A stretch of 12,600 nt of DNA from Planctomycetia bacterium (GTDB taxonomy: Bacteria > Planctomycetota > UBA11346), in NCBI GenBank assembly GCA_005801395.1, contig SYDV01000107.1, positions 1 to 12,600 of the forward strand, written 5' to 3'. The translations under genes and the position numbers were made by a program. Below are positions 42-12,600 of the stretch, piece after piece. The notes beneath the pieces were generated by a model. The model made no database searches. It had not been told where the DNA came from and saw only the letters and a list, made by a program, of their open reading frames with translations. The stretch's first letter is position 1; every line of letters starts with the position of its first letter.

Positions 42-2066
42 TCACCTTCCCGATTCATCAAACCGCAATAATCTCCCCGCATTCGCCATCACGGCGAGCG
101 TGCCTAAATTGTGCAGCATAACGGCGGCGATAGGACCATATAATTTTAGCGCTGCACCTGCGATGATGACAATGGTCCACCCAAGGCCAATTAACACATT
201 GATGTTAATCGTTTTACGGCAGTGACGACTCAGACGAATACAACTGCCTAAACGCCGTAAATCGTGTGACATTAAGACTAAATCACTAGAGGCCATCGCG
301 ACATCGGTGCCACCGACGCGGCGACCGCTGGCATCGAGTCCGCCCATGGCGATGCCGACGGCTCCGGCTTTCAGCGCCAACGCATCGTTGACGCCATCAC
401 CGATAACCAATGGATGACGGCCTGCTTTTAGCTCACGTAAAACACAGTCCAATTTTTGTTGTGGCAACACATCAGCTTCAACGTGATTTATACCTAATTG
501 TTTAGCAATCGCCTCGGCCACCACGCGGCGGTCGCCGGTCACCATAATTTGGTGCGATAAACCTAAAGCACGTAAATCGGCCAAGGCCTCGCCCGCTTCT
601 GGTTTCGGTTCGTCCGATAACAACAACCAGCCGACACACTGACCAGCAATACCTAAAGCCACCAACGGACCATCATGGACAGGCATCGCGGGAACCACGA
701 TGCCTTGTTCGCTCAAAAAGGTGGCGCGACCCAACACAACGTTACGACCATCAGGTAAGGTTGCCGTCACCCCTTTGCCGCTAATTTCTTGGACGTTGGT
801 TAAGGCCAAGCGATCAGCTTGCGTCACACCAGCCGCTACGGCTTGGCTCACAGGATGCGTACTGACGGCGCCCACGCTGCCCGCAATACGCACCCACGAT
901 TGATCATCATCAGCGGCCACGCTTACAACGCTATGCAACGATAAATGACCTTGGGTCACGGTGCCGGTTTTATCTAATATTAATGAATCGACATCAGCGA
1001 GCTCTTCAAGAAATGCCGTGCCTTTAACCAGAATACCATGACGTCCAGCCACCGCTAACGCCGCAATCGCCGTTGCTGGTGCGGCTAACACTAAAGCACA
1101 AGGACACGATGCGACTAACACGCCCATCATTGCAGCCACCGAACCTGTGAGCAGCCACGTCGCTGCGGCAAATAAAAGGACGGCGATTAAATACGGTTGA
1201 GCATAGCGTTCCAACAATCTCGTTACCGGTGGCTTAGCGCGTTCGGCATCGCTCAGTAACGCCACGACTTTTCCCAGCGTGGTGTCGTTACCAACGCTGG
1301 TGACTTCGACCACTAAACGTCCCTGCTGATTAATCGTTCCAGCATAAACCGCATCACCGGCGGTAACTTCTACCGGTACCGACTCGCCGGTTATTGGTGC
1401 CGTGTCGATACTCGAAGCGCCTTCACGCACCACGCCATCGGCAGGACAGCGATCACCTGGGCGCAATTCTACGCGCATGCCAACCGTTAAACTATCGACC
1501 GGAATTTCAACCACCGAGCCATCTGCCTGACAGCGACGCGCATGCGTCACACTTAAACGGCCAAGTGCCGCAATCGCTTCACGCGAACCCAATAAACTGC
1601 GCTCTTCTAGGACATGACCAATCACCATCGCCAATGGCACCAACGCCGCAGTTTCTAAATCGCCAACCACCCAGGCCGCAATCAATGCGACAGCCACTAA
1701 TTGATCCGTCACGCCATGCAATGACGGTTGACGTAAACTACGCCAAGCTTCCTGTAACACCGGAATCGCAACCAAGGTCGCGGCCACACCAGCGACCAAA
1801 CTCGCCAAGTCGGCTTGCGCTGGCAAAAAAACGTGAATGACCAGGGCCATCAATAATAAACCAACACAAATCAGCGCCAATGTCAGACGTAGACCGAGCG
1901 AACGTTTCTCTTTCGAACTTAGCAAATCGCCATTATCACCAAAATTGAGATGATGATGATGGCAACAATCTCCACCTTCGACGTGATCATGGTCAGCGAC
2001 GACGACTGGTTTCATGGTCGCGGCCCAATTATTGCCAACCGGTTTAAATATGGGCGACTGGTTCAT
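42..2066 (-). CDS. Heavy-metal-translocating P1B-type ATPase
   Basis: A 674-residue membrane pump that should use ATP to move a transition-metal ion, most likely out of the cytoplasm. Visible motifs are TGES (226-229, actuator domain), CPC (321-323, the metal-binding membrane motif of the P1B class), DKTGT (365-369, with phosphorylated Asp365), the HP pair (404-405), MVTGD (508-512) and GDGVND (556-561). Membrane pairs lie near 60-105, 121-153 and 290-330, with a last pair at about 622-666. The last segment has Lys641 as in Zn/Cd pumps, but reads HNLGT (652-656) where ZntA-type pumps have an Asp. There is no CxxC-type HMA domain; instead a His/Cys-rich stretch (25-39: HDH, CCHHHH) is likely a metal-binding tail. 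The ATG overlaps the stop of the upstream SPFH gene (ATGA), so translation is probably coupled. Metal specificity (Zn, Cd, Co or other) is inferred only weakly. Confidence 0.95.
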   Translation of the reverse strand: MNQSPIFKPVGNNWAATMKPVVVADHDHVEGGDCCHHHHLNFGDNGDLLSSKEKRSLGLRLTLALICVGLLLMALVIHVFLPAQADLASLVAGVAATLVAIPVLQEAWRSLRQPSLHGVTDQLVAVALIAAWVVGDLETAALVPLAMVIGHVLEERSLLGSREAIAALGRLSVTHARRCQADGSVVEIPVDSLTVGMRVELRPGDRCPADGVVREGASSIDTAPITGESVPVEVTAGDAVYAGTINQQGRLVVEVTSVGNDTTLGKVVALLSDAERAKPPVTRLLERYAQPYLIAVLLFAAATWLLTGSVAAMMGVLVASCPCALVLAAPATAIAALAVAGRHGILVKGTAFLEELADVDSLILDKTGTVTQGHLSLHSVVSVAADDDQSWVRIAGSVGAVSTHPVSQAVAAGVTQADRLALTNVQEISGKGVTATLPDGRNVVLGRATFLSEQGIVVPAMPVHDGPLVALGIAGQCVGWLLLSDEPKPEAGEALADLRALGLSHQIMVTGDRRVVAEAIAKQLGINHVEADVLPQQKLDCVLRELKAGRHPLVIGDGVNDALALKAGAVGIAMGGLDASGRRVGGTDVAMASSDLVLMSHDLRRLGSCIRLSRHCRKTININVLIGLGWTIVIIAGAALKLYGPIAAVMLHNLGTLAVMANAGRLLRFDESGR

Positions 2067-3103
2067 TTGCGTTCTGTGCCCCCAGGCAACATCAAGCGAA
2101 TTGGATCACGTCCATCGACCAGCGTCACTAGTCCGGCCTTACGTAAAATAACTTCTAAGCGATCGCGATAAATACGCGTCAATAATAAAGATCGTTGTTC
2201 CGGAGAACGCTCAGTACTTAAGGCCACAATATTCGCTGTGGTAACGCGAGCGACTGAAACTAATTCACTAGCTTTCGCTTCTGCATTTTGAATAATTCCG
2301 ATACGATCACGTTCACCTTGTTGCCGATATTGTTCTGCGTCGGTATGCGCCGATGCAACAATACGTGCCGCTTCTGCTTCGGCGGCAACCACCTGTTCAA
2401 ATGACGACCGAGCTCGTGCTGGTAATTTACTCGTCAAATCCACGCGACTAATAGTGATGCCAAGGTCCAGTTGCTGTAAACGTTTATTCATCAGGCTGCG
2501 AATATCACCACGCAAGGCTTCCCGTTGATTCGCATTTACCGCATTGACTGGAATTGTTTCTGCCGCATTCACCACTGCCACTCCGTCTAAATGACGTGTC
2601 GCGATGGCGGCAATTGCACTAGCGCAAAATGTTCGCTCCAATGCAGAGAATAAACGTTCTTGCGCCAGCACATATAAAGCGGCGTCGGTGACTTGATAAA
2701 CGACCACACCCTTCACTTGAATTACGCCACCATCACCGGTTAATGCATAACTATCCTGACGCTGATCCAAGTTCGTATCTAATTCTAATGGTGGTGGCGC
2801 ATCTTGCGGCAACGGCGCTTGATCCAGGGCATAGACTTCCTGAGTTAATTGCCGTTCTGGTCCAGGAACAATGACAACCGTGTCGATGGGTCTTGGCCAA
2901 GCCCAGACTAATCCGGTTTCGCCAATCTTAACCACCTCGCCAAAACGAAATACCACGACACGACTGCCGGATTCAACCGCAACAAAACCTGAAGCCAACC
3001 ACGCCAAACCCAACACGGTGACACCGATAAATAAAAAACGGAAGCCCCAGGAAACCGCCTGTTCTAACGCTTGATGACCAGCCTGATCGCGACGATTGGT
3101 CAT
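2063..3103 (-). CDS. SPFH/Band 7 protein, HflK-like
   Basis: A stomatin/prohibitin-type membrane protein of about 346 residues, the third SPFH gene of the operon. It has one N-terminal membrane segment (about residues 22-42), then the typical start of an SPFH domain (VESGSRVVVFRFGEV, about 46-60) and a HflK-like core with VQVKG-type strand and YQV (about 131-141). A long Ala/Glu-rich helix likely to be a coiled coil follows (about 235-300). HflK/HflC proteins form membrane complexes that modulate the FtsH protease; no ftsH gene is in this window, so that partner is an inference. The longest reading frame starts at a GTG at 3112, but I prefer the ATG at 3103 because a GGTGGTGG purine-rich stretch lies just before it. 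Its stop overlaps the ATPase start by ATGA, which ties it to metal transport. Confidence 0.9.
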   Translation of the reverse strand: MTNRRDQAGHQALEQAVSWGFRFLFIGVTVLGLAWLASGFVAVESGSRVVVFRFGEVVKIGETGLVWAWPRPIDTVVIVPGPERQLTQEVYALDQAPLPQDAPPPLELDTNLDQRQDSYALTGDGGVIQVKGVVVYQVTDAALYVLAQERLFSALERTFCASAIAAIATRHLDGVAVVNAAETIPVNAVNANQREALRGDIRSLMNKRLQQLDLGITISRVDLTSKLPARARSSFEQVVAAEAEAARIVASAHTDAEQYRQQGERDRIGIIQNAEAKASELVSVARVTTANIVALSTERSPEQRSLLLTRIYRDRLEVILRKAGLVTLVDGRDPIRLMLPGGTERK

Positions 3104-3146
3104 AACCACCACCAGCGATAAATTTTCATTTGAACCATTAAACTAT

Positions 3147-4145
3147 TCATGGCTTGGCCCGCGATTGCGCTGCCGGTGGAACTGGCCCATCAACTAAAGC
3201 TCTAAATGGCGCGGCGTCGGTTCGCAGAATAATTCGCGTGCCACTTGTTATAATCTGATCCAAAGTATCCAATCCACGCAAAAAAGCGTAGAGCTGTGGA
3301 TCCGCAACGTGCGCGGCGGCATAAATACCAGCAGCATCCGTTTTTGCCTTGGCCTCAATTTCAGCTGCCATTTCTTGCGCCTTGGCAATCACGATACGCG
3401 AATCGCGAAATGCCGTTTGATTGATATCAGCAGCTAACAATGAACCCTTTGCCTTCTTTTCCGCGGCAGCCGTTTGCCGTTCAGCAATCATGCGTTCGAC
3501 CGTGACTTTAATGGTGCTGCTGGGTAAACCTAAACGTTCAATACCGACTTGCACCACATCGATGCCGTATTTGTCGTGGATTGGTTGTGATAAGCGTCGT
3601 AATAAATCTTGTTCTAACGCATCTAATTTCACCTGCGCGACTTCAGCATTAATTAAATCCTCCATGGCATAGCGACTAACTTCCGCCTCTAAGGCTGAGC
3701 CTAAAAACGACCGCACTTGCATGGCCGCTTCGTCAGCGTCACCACGAACTGAGCGTAAATAATCTAAAATTCTTGGCGCTTCGGCAGGAACACGCCAGGC
3801 AATAAATGCGGACATTTGAATGCGTACACCTCCTTTGGTGCCAACATCATGTAGACCAGTAGCGGTAGTATGCAGGCGTAAATCCACCGACACCGTTCGT
3901 TCAATCGGCGCAGGAATTCGCCAAGTTAATCCTGGTTGCACCTGAATGCGCACCGGATCACCAAAACGCGTAATGACGACCGCAGAACCCTGAGCGACGA
4001 CGACCAAGGTTGCGGCTAAAAACGCCACCACGATTAAGACCCCAGCAATCCCTATACGCATCCACGGCCGACCAATTTGACCATGCGTCGTTTTAGGGAC
4101 AGGTGCATCATGATGATGATGCGAATGATGATGGTCTTGACTCAT
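3147..4145 (-). CDS. SPFH/Band 7 protein, HflC-like, with His-rich N-terminus
   Basis: A 332-residue HflC-like member of the SPFH family. A cytoplasmic-looking N-terminus with DHHHSHHHHD (4-13) precedes one membrane segment (31-51). The SPFH domain follows (QGSAVVITRFGDPVR, 52-66; PGLTWRIPAPIE, 71-82). A charged Ala/Glu/Lys-rich helix occupies about 215-280, with ERMIAERQTAAAEKKAKG as the usual HflC signature region. The final domain ends DPQLYAFLRGLDTLDQII, close to the HflC family pattern for its C-terminus. The seven-histidine N-terminal cluster is not part of ordinary HflC and suggests metal binding. The ATG lies 2 nt after the stop of the large SPFH gene, so the two are co-translated. 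Its job is probably to form a membrane ring or scaffold with the neighbouring SPFH proteins; the link with metal export is contextual. Confidence 0.92.
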   Translation of the reverse strand: MSQDHHHSHHHHDAPVPKTTHGQIGRPWMRIGIAGVLIVVAFLAATLVVVAQGSAVVITRFGDPVRIQVQPGLTWRIPAPIERTVSVDLRLHTTATGLHDVGTKGGVRIQMSAFIAWRVPAEAPRILDYLRSVRGDADEAAMQVRSFLGSALEAEVSRYAMEDLINAEVAQVKLDALEQDLLRRLSQPIHDKYGIDVVQVGIERLGLPSSTIKVTVERMIAERQTAAAEKKAKGSLLAADINQTAFRDSRIVIAKAQEMAAEIEAKAKTDAAGIYAAAHVADPQLYAFLRGLDTLDQIITSGTRIILRTDAAPFRALVDGPVPPAAQSRAKP

Positions 4146-4147
4146 GG

Positions 4148-6106
4148 TTATTCCACAGGCGTTGCAAAACGCCGTAAATCGAGCACTGGTCCGTCAACCA
4201 GGTTCAATCGGTGATCAATAATAGACAGTTGTGAACGTGATAATCCTTTACCCAACACTTGCAGCCAGCGCTCCAGGGCCATGACCTCGCTTGACAGAGA
4301 CCAAATTTTTGCTTCTGCGATAAATTTCGCTTGCTCAATTCGTGCCTCGGAAACTTTTTGGACAGCCAACCATTGAGCATTACGTTCAGCCGTAATCGCC
4401 TCAATCTTTTTCTCACTCAGCGTCACGGCGCTATTGCGCTTAGCCTCTGCCACTTCAGCTTCGCTAATGATTTCCGCTTCCTGAACTCCATGATAAGCGG
4501 CAGCAGCATTCGCTGGTGGGTGAATACTGTCAACGGTAACGGCCGTTATTTCTAAGCCGCTCTGTTCTTTATTAAGCGCCTGTTGCACAGCCGTTTTTAC
4601 CACGGCGGCTAAACTGGCACGGTTTTCTCCAATGGCAGCAATGAGCGTGCGCGTGGCAAATACCCGCACCAATTCGCGGCGTGCGAGCGTGCGAATGGTT
4701 AATTCAGGATCTGATAAACGATACAAAGCGCGTAAGGCATCTTCGTCGCGTTGACCAATGCGATAATAAATACGCACATCGCTGCCTAACACTTGTGGTG
4801 CGCGCCTTTCACTATCGCTGCGTCCATTGCCTGGAACGACGTAGACGGCGTCCGCCGCATGATCCTTATTCCACACTCGGTCAAAAGCAGACGTATTTAT
4901 CGCGTCTGCAGGAATACGAACTTGTTCTTCTAATTTATTATCTGCCAAAGTCACTTGATGCACACGCCCAGCATCCATGCGTCGCACGACACCGAATGGC
5001 CACGGTAAATGGACATGCATGCCACTGTTAAGTACGGCGACTGGTTGGCCACCGCGTTCGTAAACGGCACGTTCATGTAACGACACCATGCTCACACCAG
5101 AGAGCAACCACGCGACGAATAACAACACGATGATCAACGGACCACTGACGCGACGCACGAAAGATAGCGCCCAGCTTTGTGACAGATCTATACCAAAGCG
5201 TTCCTTCAAGCCCGCCATGGTGCTGCGTCCAGCGCCTAAGCGCGGCAACACCACACCGGCGACGAAACTATCGCATAGTCCACGCGCTTCTTCGACATTC
5301 GCCGCGGGCAAGAATGGTGCAATTAATACCCGCAACATCGATTCGGCAGCAATGGTTACGACTACAACGGCATAAATCCACAAAGCCCAAATCGCAATCG
5401 TTGCACCTAAAGAACGCGCTATTTCACCTGCGCCAATGATGAGCAAACCCCACAACACCACACGCATCAAGCGTGACAAACTTCCGGCTTCCGGCAAATC
5501 ACTGACTGTGGTCGTCGCGGCAACACTTAATCGCCGTTCAAAGACTAAAACAGGAAAGGCAAAGACCAAACACGTCACCCCAATGGCAAAACCAAACGGG
5601 GTCACACCAATGACTGGCCATAACCAAACCACTAAGGCAGACGCGGCCAATAATTGCGGTAATGACAATACCGTTTGCGGCCAACCCGCCAAACGCAGCA
5701 AACGCGTGCGCTCTGCTTGAAAAACAATATCGGGTTCGTCAGAGCCGCTGAAAATCGCTTGCGGAACCTGTGAATGTTCGTCGCGTGCTTGTTGCGCCGC
5801 TAATCGTTGTTGTCGTGTTACCGTCGCGGCGTCTGCCGCTTCAACTAAACGCCGACGACCACTGGCCAACACACTCGCCGGCACCAAGGCTGCACTCGCC
5901 AACAACCACACGCTACTAACGAGCGCGAGCACCGACGCGGCCTGTGGTTGCTTCATAATAAGTAACGCCACCGCACCAAAACCAGTCACCACACCAATGA
6001 GCGTCACGACCCAAGCGGCTACGGCCAACACGCCGTACCAACGCACAGCAGCCGATACCGAGATCGGCAACACGAGCGAAGGAGGAGGAACTAAACGGTC
6101 AGCCAT
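4148..6106 (-). CDS. Large polytopic SPFH/Band 7 protein (HflK-like)
   Basis: About 652 residues, roughly twice the size of a normal HflK. Numbering from the longest frame (GTG at 6175), the N-terminal half has about six hydrophobic segments (near 47-73, 78-104, 168-190, 192-212, 237-253, 258-285). A short soluble stretch is followed by a seventh membrane span (343-362). Only then comes an SPFH domain (SLHERAVYERGGQPV, 365-379; SGMHVHLPWPFG, 384-395) and a long Ala/Glu/Lys-rich helix (about 565-630). It is therefore a fusion-like layout of a multi-span membrane domain and a HflK-like module. The frame opens with GTG at 6175, but the extra 23 residues are Cys-rich and unlike a normal N-terminus; the ATG at 6106 is preferred although I see no strong Shine-Dalgarno before it. 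It is the first gene of the four-gene operon. Confidence 0.88.
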   Translation of the reverse strand: MADRLVPPPSLVLPISVSAAVRWYGVLAVAAWVVTLIGVVTGFGAVALLIMKQPQAASVLALVSSVWLLASAALVPASVLASGRRRLVEAADAATVTRQQRLAAQQARDEHSQVPQAIFSGSDEPDIVFQAERTRLLRLAGWPQTVLSLPQLLAASALVVWLWPVIGVTPFGFAIGVTCLVFAFPVLVFERRLSVAATTTVSDLPEAGSLSRLMRVVLWGLLIIGAGEIARSLGATIAIWALWIYAVVVVTIAAESMLRVLIAPFLPAANVEEARGLCDSFVAGVVLPRLGAGRSTMAGLKERFGIDLSQSWALSFVRRVSGPLIIVLLFVAWLLSGVSMVSLHERAVYERGGQPVAVLNSGMHVHLPWPFGVVRRMDAGRVHQVTLADNKLEEQVRIPADAINTSAFDRVWNKDHAADAVYVVPGNGRSDSERRAPQVLGSDVRIYYRIGQRDEDALRALYRLSDPELTIRTLARRELVRVFATRTLIAAIGENRASLAAVVKTAVQQALNKEQSGLEITAVTVDSIHPPANAAAAYHGVQEAEIISEAEVAEAKRNSAVTLSEKKIEAITAERNAQWLAVQKVSEARIEQAKFIAEAKIWSLSSEVMALERWLQVLGKGLSRSQLSIIDHRLNLVDGPVLDLRRFATPVE

Positions 6107-6124
6107 GATAGTGCACGCTAGGGC

Positions 6125-6141
6125 GCAGGCAGCATGCCTGC
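6125..6141. promoter_or_regulatory. Perfect 6-bp inverted repeat in leader of the SPFH-ATPase operon
   Basis: GCAGGC (6125-6130), a 5-nt loop AGCAT, then GCCTGC (6136-6141). If translation starts at the ATG at 6106, this lies 18 nt upstream of the start in the transcript leader, where a protein-binding site or a leader hairpin could act. If the GTG at 6175 is used it lies inside the gene. A regulatory role is inferred from position only. Confidence 0.35.
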
Positions 6142-6191
6142 AATCACAGGTGTGGTCGGACAAACGTGCTGTCACACATCGGGGCTAAACT

Positions 6192-6219
6192 TGCCAATGG
6201 CAGTCCCGCCCCTTAGGGG
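6192..6219. promoter_or_regulatory. Two adjacent 11-bp palindromes between divergent operons
   Basis: TGCCAATGGCA (6192-6202) and CCCCTTAGGGG (6209-6219) are each perfect palindromes with 5-bp arms around one central base. Their centres are 17 bp apart. They lie in the short region between the divergent metal-related operons and could be operator sites or parts of the leader structure. No regulator family can be assigned from the sequence alone. Confidence 0.35.
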
Positions 6220-6226
6220 GTGTTAC

Positions 6227-6286
6227 GTTGACTAATGTCTCTCGTATTACATTGTCTTACTAATCTTTAGCTAGAGCGGAGTCAAC
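6227..6286. promoter_or_regulatory. Spaced 7-bp inverted repeat flanking the regulator's promoter region
   Basis: GTTGACT (6227-6233) and AGTCAAC (6280-6286) are perfect inverted copies with centres 53 bp apart, close to five helical turns. The right half overlaps the ribosome-binding site and abuts the ATG of the ribbon-helix-helix gene, while the left half contains a -35-like TTGACT. A direct repeat ACTAAT (6231-6236 and 6259-6264) lies between. This arrangement would suit autoregulation by the encoded DNA-binding protein, but that is an inference. Confidence 0.35.
6278..6281 (+). promoter_or_regulatory. Ribosome-binding site of the RHH regulator gene
   Basis: GGAG, 6 nt before the ATG at 6288. 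It supports this start and the plus-strand reading of the small gene. Confidence 0.65.
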
Positions 6287-6287
6287 C

Positions 6288-6566
6288 ATGAGCGAACAAG
6301 AAGTCATTTCCTTCAAAGCCGATCACGACTTGGTGTTATTGCTGAAAAGTGTGCGCAATCGTAGCGAGTTTATTCGCAATGCCGTGCTGACCGCACTCAA
6401 AGAAACCTGCCCGGTATGCAATGGCACCGGCATTTTGGATTCGCGGCGCAAAAATGACTGGGAACAATTCAGCCACAGCCACCCCATGTCTGAGTGTCGC
6501 AAATGCCACGAACTGGTGTTCACCTGCGACGGCAAACCGTTGAAGCATGAGTGCGCGCACAAATGA
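6288..6566 (+). CDS. Ribbon-helix-helix protein with Cys4 zinc-ribbon-like tail (probable metal-responsive regulator)
   Basis: A 92-residue protein in two parts. Residues about 4-38 fit a ribbon-helix-helix (CopG/Arc/MetJ) DNA-binding fold: a short strand EVISFKAD, a helix, then the typical NRSEFIRNAVLTAL helix (24-37). Residues 41-92 are rich in Cys and His: CPVCNGTG (41-48, the CxxCxGxG pattern of DnaJ-type zinc fingers), CRKC (70-73), then C80, H87, C89 and H91. The C41/C44/C70/C73 set is likely to bind a metal such as zinc. This combination recalls NikR in principle (RHH domain plus metal-sensing domain), but the metal domain is different. It is first in the operon leading to the metal ABC transporter and divergent from the P1B-ATPase operon, so it is a good candidate for the local metal sensor. 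It could instead be a non-sensory zinc-stabilised protein. The GGAG site and a clear ATG support the start. Confidence 0.85.
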   Translation: MSEQEVISFKADHDLVLLLKSVRNRSEFIRNAVLTALKETCPVCNGTGILDSRRKNDWEQFSHSHPMSECRKCHELVFTCDGKPLKHECAHK

Positions 6567-7003
6567 TCGACTTGGGTTTTGTTAGTTCATCGTTCCTGCG
6601 AATTGGCGCCGCCTGCGTATTTGCCCTCGGCGCATTTATTGCCGTGTTCAGCATCGAACAACAGACAGCGGTTCCGATGACCGCCGCAGTAATAGAGCCC
6701 AACACAACCACCACGTCATTATTAATTATTGAAACCACGTACCCCGTTCAACGCTGGCACGTACAAATGCGTGGCGTTGATGTGACAGCCACGAAAAAAG
6801 ACGCGCAACGATTCGAGGCTCAGATCAGCGGTGATCCCACGCAATGTTTTATTCATGCCGAATCAGCCGATGCGTTAAACGCCGCGCCTGCCGCGCTTCG
6901 TTGGCAATATGCCGAAAAAAGCGGTGTCATATGGGGTGAGGGTTCCGTTGCTGGCTCACTTAGCTCTTCGACGAGTTCTTCGACGAGTGATCGAGCTAAA
7001 TAA
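6563..7003 (+). CDS. Small single-span membrane protein of unknown function
   Basis: A 146-residue protein that I do not recognise. One hydrophobic segment (about residues 10-30) follows a very short N-terminus, consistent with a membrane anchor or an uncleaved signal. The rest (about 35-146) is likely outside the membrane; it contains a Thr-rich linker, a possible beta-rich part (SLLIIETTYPVQRWHVQM), one Cys and a Ser/Thr-rich tail. ATG 6563 overlaps the stop of the regulator gene (ATGA) and is preferred to an in-frame GTG at 6551. The stop directly abuts the ATG of the ABC ATPase gene (TAAATG). It sits where many Zn/Mn ABC operons encode the substrate-binding protein, but it is far too short (those are about 300 residues) and lacks a visible metal-binding His cluster, so it is not that protein. 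Confidence 0.75.
   Translation: MIDLGFVSSSFLRIGAACVFALGAFIAVFSIEQQTAVPMTAAVIEPNTTTTSLLIIETTYPVQRWHVQMRGVDVTATKKDAQRFEAQISGDPTQCFIHAESADALNAAPAALRWQYAEKSGVIWGEGSVAGSLSSSTSSSTSDRAK
6965..6988. repeat. 12-bp tandem duplication in the 3' end of the small membrane protein gene
   Basis: TCTTCGACGAGT occurs twice in perfect tandem (6965-6976, 6977-6988) and encodes a SSTS-type repeat in the C-terminal tail. The outer bases AGCTC (6962-6966) and GAGCT (6993-6997) are also inverted, so the segment could form a weak hairpin just before the ABC transporter genes. Confidence 0.8.
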
Positions 7004-7828
7004 ATGTCACACTCAGATAGTTTATTTTTTGATGACGTCACGGTGTGCTACGGACCGACACCCGCAGTCCACCATTTAACCACCACGTTACCGTGCGGAT
7101 CATTAGTCGCATTAATGGGCCCGAATGGCGCAGGAAAAAGCACCTTGCTGCGAGCGATTCTTGGTTGGCATCATTTAACGACTGGCCGTATTACATTGGG
7201 CGGTCAGCCGTGCAGCAAAGCGCGTCGGCGCATTGGTTATTTGCCACAGCGTACGGCCGTTGATTGGGATTTTCCGGTCACCGTGCGCGATGTCGTGGCC
7301 ATGGGGCGTTATCAAGTACGCGGACCTTTCCAACGTTTTCGCGCCGAAGACCACGCCGTCGTGGATGCCGCTATTCAAGAAATGGGCTTAGAATGGCTCG
7401 CTGATCGGCAGATCGCCGCGCTCTCTGGCGGCCAACAACAACGCACCTTTTTAGCACGTGCCGTAGCCTCAGGAGCGGATGTTTTTTTACTCGACGAACC
7501 ATTTGCTGGTTTAGATCCGAATTCCACCGCCGACTTAGTGCGTCGTTTACAAGCCTGGTCAAAAGCTGGTCGCTTAGTCGTAACGGTCGTGCATGACGTA
7601 CCGTTAGCGCAAAAATATTTTCCCCACGTGGTACTTATTCGCAGTCATTTAATTGCCGCTGGCCCCTGTCATGACGTTCTCAGTCAACGTAATTTAGCAA
7701 AGGCCTTTGGCGCATCGTATGCCGCTGAACGATCCGTCATTGCCGCTCGACCGCTCGCCATCCCGGACCTGGGGTCCGCGCTGCGCGATGTCCGCGTCAA
7801 AGCGCAGAATAATGATGTGGCACCATGA
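7004..7828 (+). CDS. Metal ABC transporter ATP-binding protein (ZnuC/TroB/MntB-like)
   Basis: A 274-residue cytoplasmic ATPase that should power a Zn, Mn or Fe importer. Walker A is GPNGAGKST (39-47), the Q-loop Gln is Q82 (YLPQR), the ABC signature is LSGGQQQR (140-147), Walker B with catalytic Glu is FLLDEP (161-166), the D-loop AGLD is at 168-171 and the switch His is H197 (VVHD). The stretch PQRTAVDWDFPVTVRDVVAMGRY (81-103) is typical of the manganese/zinc branch, where DxxFPxTVxDVVxMGRY is common. The start immediately follows the stop of the preceding gene, and its stop overlaps the permease ATG by ATGA, so the pair is co-translated. Which metal it carries cannot be read from the ATPase. 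Confidence 0.95.
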   Translation: MSHSDSLFFDDVTVCYGPTPAVHHLTTTLPCGSLVALMGPNGAGKSTLLRAILGWHHLTTGRITLGGQPCSKARRRIGYLPQRTAVDWDFPVTVRDVVAMGRYQVRGPFQRFRAEDHAVVDAAIQEMGLEWLADRQIAALSGGQQQRTFLARAVASGADVFLLDEPFAGLDPNSTADLVRRLQAWSKAGRLVVTVVHDVPLAQKYFPHVVLIRSHLIAAGPCHDVLSQRNLAKAFGASYAAERSVIAARPLAIPDLGSALRDVRVKAQNNDVAP

Positions 7829-8733
7829 CTGATTTATTCGCCTGGTTTGTCATTGATCCCGAACATCGATTTTTATGGCGCGCTACCATCATGTGCGTGT
7901 TACTCGGCGTCAGTTCGAGCCTGCTCGGCTGTGTCTTAATGGTGCGACGATTATCGCTCATGGGCGATGCGTTAGCCCACTCCTTGCTCCCAGGCGTAGG
8001 CATCGCTTGGTTAATGGTCGGCACCAGTTTACCCGCTTTATTAGTCGGCGGATTAGTCGCCGGTTTATTTACCGCTATTGCCAGCGGTCTGATTAGCCGA
8101 CTGACGCGCGTAAAAGAAGACGCGGCCTTTGCCGCCTTCTTTATCGCGTTGCTCGGCCTGGGTGTCGCCTTAGTCAGCCGCGCAGGGACACCGGTTGATT
8201 TATTGCATTTTTTAGTCGGCAATATTTTAGCGGTGAACGCTGGCGACCTCTACCTCGCGGCGGGTGTCAGTAGTTTAACGCTGCTGATCTTTGCCCTATT
8301 TTATCGAAATATCTTATTGGAATGTTTCGATCCCGCTTATCACCGCGCCTGTGGTGGATGGAGTTTCACCACCCATTTAGGTTTACTCGCACTTGTCGTG
8401 CTCAATTTAGTCGCCGCGTTACATGCCATGGGCAGTGTATTGGCACTCGGCTTATTCATGCTGCCCGCCGTCACCGCCTATTTGTGGTGTAATCGCTGGG
8501 GTTTGATGTTAATCGTCGCCGTACTCTATGCCGTAGGTGGATCGTTAATCGGACTCGCAATCAGCTGGTACGCCGCCCTCGCCTCTGGCCCTGCCATTGT
8601 CATGACCTTAGGCGCAGGATTTTTAATCTCAGCCATTATTAGTCCCAAACAGGGATTACTCGCCCGGTTCTTACGCCCAGAACATCATCACCGCGAAGAA
8701 AGCCACGAGCACTGCGACACGCACGGACATTGA
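7825..8733 (+). CDS. Metal ABC transporter permease (ZnuB/TroC/MntC-like) with His-rich C-terminus
   Basis: A 302-residue integral membrane permease of the ABC-3 family (Zn/Mn/Fe uptake). About eight membrane segments are visible. Family hallmarks include RRLSLMGDALAHSLLPGV (about 42-59) and the loop GSVLALGLFMLPAVTAYLW (about 203-221). The tail after the last span (residues about 285-302) contains HHHREESHEHCDTHGH, seven His and one Cys, which probably binds metal on the cytoplasmic side. It overlaps the ATPase gene by ATGA. No gene for a substrate-binding protein follows; the next gene is an unrelated sulfatase with its own promoter-like region. The transporter would need a binding protein encoded elsewhere. 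Confidence 0.94.
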   Translation: MTDLFAWFVIDPEHRFLWRATIMCVLLGVSSSLLGCVLMVRRLSLMGDALAHSLLPGVGIAWLMVGTSLPALLVGGLVAGLFTAIASGLISRLTRVKEDAAFAAFFIALLGLGVALVSRAGTPVDLLHFLVGNILAVNAGDLYLAAGVSSLTLLIFALFYRNILLECFDPAYHRACGGWSFTTHLGLLALVVLNLVAALHAMGSVLALGLFMLPAVTAYLWCNRWGLMLIVAVLYAVGGSLIGLAISWYAALASGPAIVMTLGAGFLISAIISPKQGLLARFLRPEHHHREESHEHCDTHGH

Positions 8734-8887: not shown

Positions 8888-10336
8888 ATGGGTAAATTAC
8901 TAACTGCTATTCTACTGACCTTGAGCATGTTGCACGGCGTCTCTGCTGAACGACCAAATATTTTATGGATTATCTCTGAAGATATGTCTGCACATTTCGG
9001 CTGCTATGGCGAAAAGGCCATCAGCACACCACATGTCGATCAATTAGCCGCCGAAGGTTTATGTTTTGAACGGGCATACGTTACCGCCCCGATTTGCTCG
9101 ACCTCACGATCCTCACTGATCACTGGCATGTATCAGACTTCGATTAATGGCCACCATCATCGTAGTGGACGTGGCACGGTAAAAATAGCTTTACCAGAAG
9201 CCGTTATTGCAGTTCCTCTCTTATTTCGCCAAGCAGGTTATTATACTAGTAATGGCACTTGGTCAGCTAAAGCCGTCAATCAAAGCAAAGGTAAAACCGA
9301 CTACAATTTCGTCGGCGAAGAAAAATTCTATGACGGCAATGATTGGACTGGACGCAAACCAGGACAACCATTTTTCGCTCAAATTCAATTACATGGCGGC
9401 AAAGTGCGGGATGGTAAAAATGCGGCTGAAACATTTACCAAAGCTATGGGCGGTCTGACGCCCACGGAAAAACTCAGCTTACCACCCTATTATCCGCGCA
9501 CCGATGCCATGCTGACCGACTGGGGGCTAACTCTGGATGCCTGTCGCTTAGTTGATCTCCAAGTCGGAGAAATTCGTGCCCGCCTGGAAGCGGAAGGCAT
9601 ACTCAATCAAACGGTGATTATGTTCATTACAGACCACGGCGTTAGCCACGCACGCGGGAAACAATTTCTCTACGATGAAGGCACCCACATTCCCTGCATC
9701 ATGCGAGGCCCTGGAATTAAACCACAGAGCCGTCGCCAAGATGTAATCGAACACATTGATTTAGCCGCCACGGCGCTCGCCGCCGCTGGCCTCGCCAAAC
9801 CCGCCACCATGCAAGCCCAAGATGTTTTAGCCCCCACCTACCGCCCACGCGAAGCCGTGTTTTCTGCTCGCGATCGCGCTGATGAAACCGTTGAACATAT
9901 CCGCAGCGTACGCACCGACCGCTGGCTCTATATTCGTAATTATTTACCGAACCGACCCATGCTGCAACCAAACCGCTACAAGGACGGAAAGAATTGTCTT
10001 AAAGCCCTACGCGCCGCCGAAGCCGCTGGGCAACTGAACGATTTACAAAAACAATTATTACTCTCCCCCACGCGACCAAACGAAGAACTGTACGATTACC
10101 GCGCTGATCCGTTCCAAATCACCAACCTCGCCAATGACCCCGCCAATGCCACCGTACTTGCCGATCTTCGCACCCGTCTAGCAACCTGGGAAAACACCAC
10201 CAACGACCACGGCCGCACACCAGAATCAGAGGCGCAATATGACAGTGATATGGCTGAATATTTGGGAAAAAAGGGTGATACCGAAGTACAGCGTAACATT
10301 GATTTAATGAAGCAGTGGGCGAAGGAAGGGAAGTAG
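8888..10336 (+). CDS. Secreted sulfatase (N-sulfoglucosamine sulfohydrolase-like subgroup)
   Basis: A 482-residue hydrolase predicted to remove sulfate esters or N-sulfate from a sugar or other organic sulfate outside the cytoplasm. It has a signal peptide (1-20, cleaved after GVSA). Sulfatase hallmarks are RPNILWIISEDMSAHFGCYG (22-41, with metal-binding acidic residues ED), the active-site motif CSTSR (70-74) and ITDHG (247-251) followed by RGKQFLYDEGTHIP (256-269). Cys70 should be converted to formylglycine, but the third motif position is Thr instead of the usual Pro or Ala. HHHRSG (89-94) after the motif matches many planctomycete sulfatases. A GGAG site lies 5 nt before the ATG. The substrate cannot be fixed from the sequence, and no maturation enzyme is in the window. 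It shares no obvious functional link with the metal operons upstream. Confidence 0.95.
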   Translation: MGKLLTAILLTLSMLHGVSAERPNILWIISEDMSAHFGCYGEKAISTPHVDQLAAEGLCFERAYVTAPICSTSRSSLITGMYQTSINGHHHRSGRGTVKIALPEAVIAVPLLFRQAGYYTSNGTWSAKAVNQSKGKTDYNFVGEEKFYDGNDWTGRKPGQPFFAQIQLHGGKVRDGKNAAETFTKAMGGLTPTEKLSLPPYYPRTDAMLTDWGLTLDACRLVDLQVGEIRARLEAEGILNQTVIMFITDHGVSHARGKQFLYDEGTHIPCIMRGPGIKPQSRRQDVIEHIDLAATALAAAGLAKPATMQAQDVLAPTYRPREAVFSARDRADETVEHIRSVRTDRWLYIRNYLPNRPMLQPNRYKDGKNCLKALRAAEAAGQLNDLQKQLLLSPTRPNEELYDYRADPFQITNLANDPANATVLADLRTRLATWENTTNDHGRTPESEAQYDSDMAEYLGKKGDTEVQRNIDLMKQWAKEGK

Positions 10337-10462: not shown

Positions 10463-10735
10463 TCATCCTCCTGAGAGCGCCTGAAGAATTAAAATTTTGT
10501 CCTCGGCCTGCAGCGAGTCAGCAAGTTTTTCGCGATCGTGGATTGGCTCTTCACCGACAAAGATATTTACGTGTCGACGAAGTCTACCGGTGTCATCAAC
10601 GATATACGAGGCGAGCCCAGGATGACGGCGCTCAAGTTCATCGATTATGCTGCGCACGGTCGTTCCTGGAATCTCGCCATCGTCGAGATTGGGGAAAAAT
10701 ATTTGCAGATGACGAGTGAACGTGACGTGCGGCAT
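10463..10735 (-). CDS. MoaD/ThiS-family ubiquitin-fold protein
   Basis: A 90-residue protein with the beta-grasp features of MoaD/ThiS. These are a short N-terminal strand, GTTVRSIIDELERRHPGL (24-41, the usual helix), VNIFVGEEPI (56-65), the D-x-L region (about 71-85) and a C-terminal ALSGG ending in Gly-Gly. In MoaD and ThiS this Gly-Gly is activated and carries sulfur for molybdopterin or thiazole synthesis. No other molybdopterin or thiamine gene is nearby, so the real sulfur acceptor is unknown. It starts 6 nt after the stop of the Asp-box protein gene and is probably co-translated with it. Such MoaD-like genes next to sialidase-like propeller genes recur in environmental bacteria, without a known role. 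Confidence 0.85.
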   Translation of the reverse strand: MPHVTFTRHLQIFFPNLDDGEIPGTTVRSIIDELERRHPGLASYIVDDTGRLRRHVNIFVGEEPIHDREKLADSLQAEDKILILQALSGG

Positions 10736-10741
10736 GCGAGA

Positions 10742-11923
10742 TCAGGAAAAGCGGACAGAATGAACGGGCGGTAAATTATTGCCAACGCAGCTCCACGTGT
10801 CGCCGCGATCATCTGAAACATAAACGTTGCCAGTCGTGCTGCCGAAGCAGACGGAATCGCCACGGGCATCGAGGCCGTGCCGGTAAACGACGTCGTAGGT
10901 ATTTTCTTGCGGGAGTCCTTTGCGCAGCGTCTCCCAATTCGCGCCGCCGTCTTTCGTGCGCGCGACAAAAAGTCCGCCGCCGACCGCCATGCGCTGAGCG
11001 TCGCTGTGGGCTGGCACCACCCACGCTGTGCGGCCATCGTGTTCGTCGACCGCGATGGGAAATCCGAAGTGGACGGCTTGGTCTTTATTACTGACGCGTT
11101 TCCATGACCGAGCGCAGTCTTCGCTCATAAATATGCCGCAATGATTTTGCTGCCAAAGCCGATCTGGATCATGTGGACATTGCGTGATGAAATGCGGATC
11201 GTGTCCCCACTCTGCTTCAGGGTTGGGCAGGTAATCGTTGAGCACACCTTTATTCATCGCCTTCCACGTCTTGCCGCCGTCGGTCGTGCCGGCAATGCCA
11301 GCACAGGAAACGCCAATAAGCATGCGCCCTGGATCGCGCGGGTCGACAACAATGGAGTGAATGCCTGGCACAAATTCGCCATAGGCCATCGCCGCTGGCG
11401 TGCCGCCCCAATGATTCCTCGACGTCGCGTTGCCGACAAACAAATCGCCGCCGCGACTTTCGTGATTCCACAGCGGAAGATTTAATTCCCAGGTGTCACC
11501 ACCGTCGTGGCTGGTGAACAATCCCCCAGGCAACGTCCCCGCGTGAATCGTTTTGGGCTGCTGTTTCCCACCGAAAGCCATCACCCAAACTTTCAGCAGC
11601 GAGGCCTCTTTATAGGCCGTCGGCTGTTCAACATTTAAATCCATGTCCGGCGTCGGCAGGTGTTGCTCAACAAAGCGCGCGCCCTTTGGATATGCGAGCT
11701 GAGAAAGATTTTCCCACGTCGCCCCATCGTCCTTCGAACGCGACAGCTTCGGCCCCCAATGCGCATGATCCATCGCCGCCCAGATCGTGCCGTTGCGCGG
11801 ATCACGCGCAGCGTAACTAATCGACATGCCAGCATGCGCTATCGGACGCGGCTTCCACGCGCCAGCCTTGCGATCAAGAATGAGCGTGCCTTTGCGAGTT
11901 CCGAGGATGATTTGGTTGGACAT
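10742..11923 (-). CDS. Asp-box (BNR) beta-propeller protein, 'exo-alpha-sialidase-like'
   Basis: A 393-residue protein made of repeated propeller blades. Six Asp-box motifs (S/T-x-D-x-G-x-x-W) are seen at about 63-70, 138-145, 213-220, 267-274 (degenerate, Gly replaced), 323-330 and 370-377. There is no signal peptide, so the protein looks cytoplasmic, unlike secreted sialidases. The N-terminus starts straight into a blade (IILGTRKGTLIL) and I see no RIP-type sialidase arginine motif. It is often annotated as exo-alpha-sialidase or glycosyl hydrolase, but sialidase activity is unlikely; a VPS10/sortilin-like binding propeller is more plausible. It is the first gene of a two-gene operon with the MoaD-like protein. 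The stretch looks GC-richer than the rest of the window (for example 40 of 60 bases at 10921-10980), suggesting a different origin or codon bias. Confidence 0.85.
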   Translation of the reverse strand: MSNQIILGTRKGTLILDRKAGAWKPRPIAHAGMSISYAARDPRNGTIWAAMDHAHWGPKLSRSKDDGATWENLSQLAYPKGARFVEQHLPTPDMDLNVEQPTAYKEASLLKVWVMAFGGKQQPKTIHAGTLPGGLFTSHDGGDTWELNLPLWNHESRGGDLFVGNATSRNHWGGTPAAMAYGEFVPGIHSIVVDPRDPGRMLIGVSCAGIAGTTDGGKTWKAMNKGVLNDYLPNPEAEWGHDPHFITQCPHDPDRLWQQNHCGIFMSEDCARSWKRVSNKDQAVHFGFPIAVDEHDGRTAWVVPAHSDAQRMAVGGGLFVARTKDGGANWETLRKGLPQENTYDVVYRHGLDARGDSVCFGSTTGNVYVSDDRGDTWSCVGNNLPPVHSVRFS

Positions 11924-12165: not shown

Positions 12166-12600
12166 TCACGCTTGTTGATTGACTAATAATAATTCAATTT
12201 TTCTAAACTCGTCTGCTTTACCTTCGTTTTTTGACCAACGAATGAGCTCTTCCCTATTGATGGGATGGTGCTTTGCGACAGCAATCGCCTGATTTAAGCA
12301 TTGTTTGTCGCCGTGATGAAACCACCACGTTAGTCGGTCTTTCATACAATCTAATGGTGATAACAACGTCAGGGTTCCTGTTGATACATGCATATGATTA
12401 ATGTGCTGTGGTCGCTCTTCACCGACCGTTACTGGTCCAGCAGGAAATTCGACTATAAATTTTGTTTCAGGATGAACAAAATAACGGTTCTTTTCTGTGA
12501 ACCCTAATTTTAACATCACCTTCTTGATGTCGATCCGACGAGATAATCCATCAGTAATCAGATCGATATCATCGCTGATATAGGCATTCTTGCTCCAAAT
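12166..12600 (-). CDS. Nucleotidyltransferase-like protein, 5' end beyond window
   Basis: The frame stays open to the right edge, so the gene is longer than the 117 residues counted from the first in-window GTG/ATG (12519/12516). At least 144 residues are encoded here. The upstream part reads IWSKNAYISDDIDLITDG (first 18 residues from the edge), and SDDIDLI is the acidic motif that binds metal in nucleotidyltransferase-fold proteins. It is followed by YFVHPETKFIVEFPAGPV and a C-terminal half with DRLTWWFHHGDKQ and AVAKHHPINREEL. These features resemble a widespread family of nucleotidyltransferase-like hypothetical proteins (DUF6036 or AbiEii-like). Its role is not known from here: it may be a toxin, antitoxin or RNA/protein modifier. 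The gene and its surroundings are AT-rich (19 of 60 G+C at 12181-12240). Confidence 0.8.
   Translation of the reverse strand: MWSKNAYISDDIDLITDGLSRRIDIKKVMLKLGFTEKNRYFVHPETKFIVEFPAGPVTVGEERPQHINHMHVSTGTLTLLSPLDCMKDRLTWWFHHGDKQCLNQAIAVAKHHPINREELIRWSKNEGKADEFRKIELLLVNQQA

Follow-up and report, generated by a model that had tools for sequence, protein, structure and literature searches.

The 12,600-nt stretch of DNA analysed here (the window, by which we mean the whole of it) stems from a bacterium akin to the Planctomycetota and carries two divergent operons, one encoding three SPFH proteins and a P1B-type ATPase, the other a small Cys/His-rich regulator, a membrane-anchored orphan and two components of an ATP-binding cassette (ABC) transporter. 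The question arises what such an assortment of genes would do for its host, and in particular whether it would expel a metal, as the initial annotation had proposed, or acquire one. From our point of view, uptake under zinc limitation would fit better than efflux, and we consider it likely that both operons serve high-affinity zinc uptake under the control of a ribbon-helix-helix (RHH)-like repressor.

The minus-strand operon, read from 6106 to 42, comprises the genes of SPFH1, SPFH2, SPFH3 and the P1B ATPase in this order, and the plus-strand operon, running from 6288 to 8733, those of the RHH-like/zinc-ribbon protein, the orphan of 147 amino acids (aa), the ABC ATPase and the ABC-3 permease. 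Between the two lies a divergent control region (6107–6287) of 181 bp if the ATG at 6106 is used as the start of SPFH1, the open frame of which extends past this codon up to a GTG at 6175. ATGA overlaps are present at three junctions, namely SPFH3/ATPase (2063–2066), regulator/orphan (6563–6566) and ABC ATPase/permease (7825–7828). The reading frames and scans of ten encoded proteins against Pfam and NCBIfam models bear out the ATPase, the three SPFH genes, the regulator, the ABC ATPase and the permease at the coordinates given to them by the initial annotation, as well as its ATGA coupling of an SPFH gene to the ATPase, its 181-bp shared intergenic region (with the ATG start at 6106) and its general view of a metal-homeostasis system; the orphan (6563–7003) had been overlooked.

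The linkage of the SPFH genes to the ATPase gene is far from peculiar to the source genome, the case in which the initial annotation would have regarded it as coincidental. A protein search with SPFH1 returned 133 relatives among 7994 scored candidates, the named ones being Planctomycetes nearer the top of the list and Proteobacteria thereafter, and a contig scan gave 523 stretches that encode a relative; the best 80 of these together with five plasmid loci make up a set of 85, so that all counts on this set refer to the closest relatives only. SPFH1, SPFH2 and SPFH3 follow each other in this order and on one strand in all 85 fetched loci, with a complete ATPase gene behind them in 84; at L026, the one remaining locus, an ATPase frame sets in at the expected position and stays open to where the contig ends. 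The order long SPFH, HflC-like, HflK-like, P1B ATPase is thus found in Planctomycetota and in alpha-, beta- and gammaproteobacteria, with contig titles naming Pseudomonas in 55 of the 80 cases and otherwise including Rhizobium, Bradyrhizobium, Paraburkholderia, Enterobacter, Cedecea, Nevskia, Solimonas and three Planctomycetota. Among 294 drawn Planctomycetota genomes, 27 encode an SPFH1-type protein (E 1e-40), at 28 places. When 24 of these were fetched more widely, 15 displayed the exact order, three had a third SPFH protein scoring nearest SPFH1, one had no recognised SPFH3 and one had an overlapping wrong frame in the list; an ATPase was present in 22 (20 downstream and two upstream of the SPFH genes) and absent from the fetched stretch in two. 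Three of the remaining four places (L006, L007 and L015) have the full order, and the fourth (G166) lies on a contig of 6 kb. The breadth and the rigidity of this SPFH-pump partnership are new, and finding three SPFH genes so strictly tied to a pump gene across two phyla suggests that their products work together, with zinc limitation as the place to look.

Two observations on individual module copies may be added. In several deep planctomycete copies (L144, L147 and L150–L155), a gene for an ABC ATP-binding protein of ~400 aa adjoins the module, as verified by Pfam for L144. On conjugative-typed plasmids of Burkholderia ubonensis and Klebsiella aerogenes (L001 and L002), the SPFH/ATPase module is located with transposase genes nearby.

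The pump module is of the kind represented by the hmtA operon of Pseudomonas aeruginosa, where the genes are labelled HflK-family (PA2439), HflC (PA2438), HflC-family (PA2437) and HmtA (PA2435), and where PA2434, PA2435 and PA2437–PA2439 are listed with 5.6- to 14.4-fold higher expression in a znuA mutant (PMC4542158, Table 2). Zur together with zinc shifts the PA2439 promoter (PMC8531726), the module proteins are raised, not all of them significantly, on zinc depletion (PMC11761036), and PA2437–PA2439 are up by log2 0.6–0.8 under N-acetylcysteine, which is read there as a zinc chelator (PMC9431628). Locus-tag equivalences in Table 2 of the latter paper (PA2439, PA2438 and PA2437 correspond to PA14_33070, PA14_33080 and PA14_33110) further identify the SPFH genes of the hmtA operon with paFlo5-paFlo6-paFlo7, one predicted operon of the same three PA14 tags that was deleted in a 2026 study of PA14; the mutant showed no impairment of growth in LB, but formed ~20% less biofilm and was attenuated in Galleria (PMC13086221). 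That study assayed LB growth, virulence traits and stress, and its main text does not contain the words 'P-type ATPase', 'Zur' or 'hmtA'. The statement of the initial annotation that no system of such make-up had been described holds in part: Zur regulation of the hmtA operon, HflK/HflC-like genes included, was on record in 2015, whereas our literature searches found no published explanation for its SPFH genes.

The link to zinc extends beyond P. aeruginosa. The module of Paraburkholderia sprentiae has genes for a zinc ABC transporter and a GTP-binding protein upstream of it, and raw counts, given here without a control rate, put a ZnuA-like gene in the fetched flanks of 16 of 110 loci and a COG0523-like gene in those of five. 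Near the SPFH1 start, a palindrome with at most two mismatches to GTTATANTATAAC, which we take to be the Zur consensus, occurs in 50 of 84 loci, whereas of 1578 background windows drawn from these loci 1.4% contain one; the 84 do not include the window, and as they are related and mostly from Pseudomonas, the 50 are not independent.

The closest genome that we reached, that of Planctomycetota bacterium MGR_bin356 (G001), holds the whole divergent layout of the window at locus L006, with an ATPase that is 74% identical. Among the loci fetched, L006 was the only one besides the window at which the two operons were seen joined. A looser arrangement is found on contig C87 of G001, where a second module copy diverges from a TonB receptor gene, which is followed by an RHH-like gene. 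The same contig also encodes two ZnuA-type proteins, two ABC sets, a FUR-family regulator and two COG0523 proteins, one of which lies above the cut-off of the ZigA zinc metallochaperone model (625 vs 600 bits). We regard these surroundings of the second module copy as a zinc-starvation island.

The direction of pumping is the point at which the strongest alternative has to be weighed. The ATPase (42–2066, minus strand, 674 aa) is HmtA-like, with a His/Cys-rich N-terminus, CPC in transmembrane helix (TM) 6, DKTGT and HNLGT in TM8, and showed no family match for an HMA domain in the Pfam scan of the window proteins. Among 107 ATPase sequences, CPC in TM6 is kept in 100 and HN at TM8 in 97, with CPG, CPT or CPS in TM6 of the other seven, as the planctomycete copies drift. 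Over 635 residues, the window ATPase is 54% identical to the P. aeruginosa ATPase P0206 (1424 member sequences), which likewise combines a His-rich N-terminus with the CPC and HN-x-S/G-T motifs, and which is probably HmtA, although the record itself names neither HmtA nor PA2435. Read against the residue roles in ZntA, the TM8 motif HNLST of P0206 corresponds, in an alignment with solved structures, to HEGST in the 'cadmium translocating' ATPase 7qbz and to DTGAT in ZntA (4umv), so that the site belongs neither to the ZntA type nor to the plain HEGST type.

Export is the usual direction for P1B ATPases. One could therefore imagine a safety valve, in which zinc starvation derepresses the importers, wrong metals (Cd, Co, Mn, Cu) enter along with zinc, and the ATPase exports them while the SPFH proteins stabilise it. 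Such a role would be in line with the score of the window ATPase on the Cd-family model (431 vs a cut-off of 313.5 bits) and with a TM8 site that differs from the ZntA type, and co-expression with zinc importers is compatible with either direction. We nevertheless regard it as rather unlikely, as a review that cites Lewinson 2009 (PMC8456098) presents HmtA as an importer of Cu and Zn that takes up neither Ag nor Cd, and it is this literature from which we infer that the module imports metal. We find no support for the metal-efflux complex of the initial annotation; the zinc-depletion-induced and Zur-bound operon of P. aeruginosa, the Zur-like boxes and a predicted operator that abuts znuA in the nearest genome reached (see below) speak for uptake.

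What the three SPFH proteins might contribute to metal import can be approached from their relatives. SPFH2 (3147–4145, minus strand, 332 aa; PF01145 9e-26) is nearest to HflC and carries a His-rich N-terminal tail preceding its membrane helix, SPFH3 (2063–3112, minus strand, 349 aa; PF01145 7e-18) is nearest to HflK, and SPFH1 (4148–6106, minus strand, 652 aa from the ATG at 6106; PF01145 7e-16) combines ~300 residues of membrane helices with an HflK-like SPFH domain. None reaches the NCBIfam equivalog cut-offs for HflK or HflC (SPFH3 82 vs 159, SPFH2 98 vs 134 and SPFH1 47 vs 159 bits). By sequence, SPFH2 matches HflC and HflK best among the solved structures, with the HflC of solved cages at 9e-18, and an AlphaFold2 model of SPFH1 (mean pLDDT 79), in which the ~300 residues form long helices preceding the SPFH domain, gave HflK/C as the best Foldseek match, with stomatin, prohibitin and erlin among the others and HflK/C together with FtsH included. 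A His-rich N-terminal stretch, defined as at least five His in 20 residues inside the first 110, was found in 81 of 109 SPFH2, 27 of 107 ATPase, two of 103 SPFH3 and none of 110 SPFH1 sequences, in longest frames some of which have too long an N-terminus; the conservation of His-rich tails that the initial annotation had wished to see examined is accordingly a property of SPFH2. Since HflC has its N-terminus inside, the tail of SPFH2 would face the cytoplasm. HflK/C surrounds FtsH in closed or nautilus-like assemblies (PMC13220708), and by analogy, given the nearness of the SPFH proteins to HflK/C, the fold matches of SPFH1 and the His-rich tail of SPFH2, an HflK/C-like cage can be envisaged around the pump, with the tails receiving metal.

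The same resemblance also allows for the view that the SPFH proteins are simply FtsH modulators that are co-transcribed with the pump by chance: the structural matches of SPFH2 are to HflC and HflK, those of SPFH1 include HflK/C with FtsH, and PA2437–PA2439 are treated as such modulators in PMC11761036 and PMC9431628. However, no FtsH family match was found among the scanned window proteins in Pfam or NCBIfam, and the SPFH scores stay below the HflK and HflC equivalog cut-offs. As an ATPase frame moreover follows the SPFH genes at 85 of 85 loci and is present in 22 of the 24 further Planctomycetota regions, we consider chance co-transcription unlikely and keep a cage around an importing pump as our proposal.

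The second operon begins with a gene (6288–6566, plus strand) for a 92-aa protein with a CxxC/CxxC zinc ribbon, which on the basis of its family alignment is predicted to be a zinc-sensing repressor. We found 61 homologues, and in an alignment of 39 of them with the window protein, all 40 sequences keep C41, C44, H65, C70, C73 and C80, in line with the probable metal sensing assumed in the initial annotation; N24, S26, E27, F28, I29 and R30, where the second helix begins, do not vary either. The N-terminus (SFKxD...NRSEFIRxA) is RHH-like, and source names of homologues from Planctomycetota, Thermodesulfobacteriota, Pseudomonadota and Firmicutes include ribbon-helix-helix or CopG; these names and the family alignment are the basis of the RHH label. 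For a paralogue, the PF01402 score is 20.0, with the cut-off at 20.5. At 1e-15, the family is present in eight of 294 Planctomycetota genomes, in one of them weakly. Eight full-length family genes were compared, namely those of the window, L006 and L127–L132. Five of the eight (window, L006, L129, L131 and L132) have Znu-type neighbours, whereas at the other three the regulator gene is directly followed by that of a small membrane protein family (L127:10124-10777, L128:3349-4155 and L130:2889-3596). The member at L127 has no Pfam match and the one at L130 no NCBIfam match, and the other two proteins besides that of L127 are 55 and 45% identical to it; possibly, they represent an undescribed metal transporter.

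The upstream regions of the regulator genes in the window and at L006 have CTCGTAWTACAWYGTCWTAC in common, and in the window the predicted tandem operator GTATTACATTGTCTTAC occupies 6244–6260 (plus strand), beginning 44 bp upstream of the regulator start codon. With at most two mismatches, all eight full-length family genes have the tandem pattern GTAWTAYNNNGTAWTAY within 150 bp upstream of their conserved codons, a count which has to be read with the reservation that the pattern was derived from these same promoters; in Markov resampling with 300 sequences per region, none was as good in seven cases and one was in the eighth. At zero mismatch, seven regulator genomes have the pattern at four places, three of them the own promoter (control: one hit), and 23 genomes without the regulator at four places, all in two genomes (control: five hits). 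Allowing one mismatch, six regulator genomes other than G001 gave 14 hits at nine places, five being regulator promoters (control: 11 hits), and G001 itself, searched with GTAWTACNNNGTNWTAC, gave seven hits at four places (reversed control: three hits). The sites are therefore not in clear genome-wide excess over the controls, their number alone proves nothing, and the argument has to rest on their location.

In G001, the four places are the regulator promoter, a site abutting the start codon of a lone znuA (PF01297, E 2e-84) on contig C64, and two sites before a probable barrel gene on contig C34. On C64, a pair of genes for an ArsP_1 permease and a DUF1980/TIGR03943 protein (L161:10170-12364) diverges from znuA at 277 bp from the operator. 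The two copies on C34 have one mismatch each, lie 4 bp apart and are located directly upstream of a gene for a probable outer-membrane barrel (PF00593, 24.4 bits vs a cut-off of 27), which shares 50% identity with the neighbour of znuA in the zinc island of C87 and is followed by an ArsR-type gene and a TonB-receptor gene. It could be argued that the operator belongs to another regulator and that the zinc-ribbon protein is, for example, anti-TRAP-like and not a DNA-binding repressor, and weak matches to anti-TRAP and DnaJ zinc ribbons are indeed all that is found on this side. Since the motif precedes the RHH-like gene in eight of eight cases, whatever gene lies downstream, and since the N-terminus is RHH-like and a paralogue scores just under the PF01402 threshold, this explanation appears improbable to us. 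We accordingly keep the RHH-like protein as the candidate owner of the operator, and suggest from sequence comparison that family and operator together could be a new class of zinc-uptake regulator; a review that places Zur and AdcR in the Fur and MarR families (PMC6103462) contains neither the word 'ribbon' nor 'CopG'.

The remainder of the plus-strand operon would constitute an importer. The ABC ATPase (7004–7828; PF00005) is of the Zn/Mn type, with AztA as its best NCBIfam model (201 bits vs a cut-off of 220), and the ABC-3 permease (7825–8733; PF00950 6.5e-50), which ends in a His-rich tail, has AztB as its best model (199 vs 280 bits). No ZnuA-type substrate-binding protein is among the ten scanned window proteins, which the lone znuA beside the same operator in G001 could explain, namely by a binding protein that is encoded elsewhere under the same control. 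The membrane-anchored orphan (6563–7003, plus strand, 147 aa from the ATG at 6563) has a remote homologue (25% identity, E 4e-9) between znuA and znuC in an ABC set of C87 (L126), and is for this reason probably an accessory part of the ABC importer. Uptake of manganese, with the RHH-like protein as a manganese sensor, would agree with the near-equal scores of the substrate-binding protein and the ABC ATPase to Mn and Zn models, but is quite improbable in view of the ZigA-level COG0523 protein on the contig of the second module copy, the Zur-like boxes and the response of the Pseudomonas module to zinc depletion.

Besides the derivation of the operator pattern from the promoters in which it was counted and the absence of a clear excess of sites, several points weigh against high-affinity zinc uptake under an RHH-like repressor. 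The window protein has no match to the Pfam RHH family (PF01402) at E 0.1, and its structure model is weak (pLDDT 72). The regulator family and the module, in eight and 27 of 294 Planctomycetota genomes, respectively, mostly occur apart, and FUR proteins are encoded in 12 of 14 genomes tested, so that the RHH-like protein need not be the zinc sensor. In four divergent paralogues (three on C87 and one at L133), no operator was found, the best sites having four to six mismatches. The operator on C64 abuts the start codon of znuA and leaves no space for a ribosome site, so that transcripts would have to be leaderless or the true start lie further in. The models for substrate-binding and ABC proteins do not separate zinc from manganese, and in PMC8531726 hmtA mRNA was constantly low and not repressed by zinc.

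With these reservations, the two operons could act as follows. When zinc is plentiful, the 92-aa protein would bind the metal via its conserved Cys/His set and occupy the tandem operator in the 181-bp region, thereby turning off the plus-strand operon and probably also the one with the SPFH genes. When zinc becomes scarce, it would release the operator; the plus-strand operon would then supply an ABC importer of ATPase, permease and membrane-anchored accessory protein, working with a binding protein encoded elsewhere, and the minus-strand operon the HmtA-like P-type ATPase and the three SPFH proteins. The latter would form an HflK/C-like periplasmic cage around the ATPase, and the imported metal would be taken over by the cytoplasmic His-rich tails of SPFH2 and the pump.

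The rest of the window gives no sign of belonging to this system in the case of the sulfatase gene 3' of the ABC permease (8888–10336). It is followed on the minus strand by genes for a BNR/sortilin-like repeat protein and then a MoaD/SAMP1-like protein (42 bits, cut-off 60) at 10463–11923, and by an open frame of at least 144 aa without NCBIfam match (12166–12600) that leaves the window edge.

If the RHH-like/zinc-ribbon family with its defined operator is what it appears to be, it would add a further regulator fold to bacterial zinc uptake. A role of SPFH proteins beside an hmtA-type pump would be of interest in its own right: metal-importing P-type ATPases are, to our knowledge, exceptional, and three SPFH partners of such a pump are unexplained in the literature that we found. 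The boldest proposal combines both, namely a new repressor class outside the Fur and MarR families, which joins an RHH domain to a Cys/His ribbon and acts on GTAWTAYNNNGTAWTAY, and a widespread cage of three SPFH types that surrounds an importing P-type ATPase in the way HflK/C surrounds FtsH, with cytoplasmic His-rich tails that accept the metal. That both parts hold at once we put forward tentatively, with somewhat less than even expectations.

Compared with known systems, the window comes closest to the hmtA operon PA2434–PA2439 of P. aeruginosa, a member of the Zur regulon, with which it shares the HflK-family, HflC and HflC-family SPFH genes, the P1B ATPase and the link to zinc; there, however, Zur acts on the promoter, whereas in the window the divergent partner is an operon for an ABC importer and the RHH-like/zinc-ribbon protein. 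With HflK/HflC-FtsH it has the SPFH domains and a likely hetero-assembly in common, but differs in its three SPFH types, the large extra membrane part of SPFH1, the His-rich tail of SPFH2 and scores below the cut-offs. Like the ZnuABC and AztABC zinc importers, it encodes an ABC ATPase and an ABC-3 permease; unlike them, it has an extra anchored orphan, no binding protein was found in the window, and its scores remain under the AztA and AztB cut-offs. The predicted zinc-dependent repression of uptake genes resembles that by Zur and AdcR, which belong to the Fur and MarR families, respectively, while the window protein stands outside both. With NikR and other RHH metalloregulators, finally, it would share an RHH DNA-binding domain joined to a metal-binding part, but where this part is an ACT domain in NikR and the metal is nickel, the window protein has a Cys/His ribbon and lies in the context of zinc uptake.

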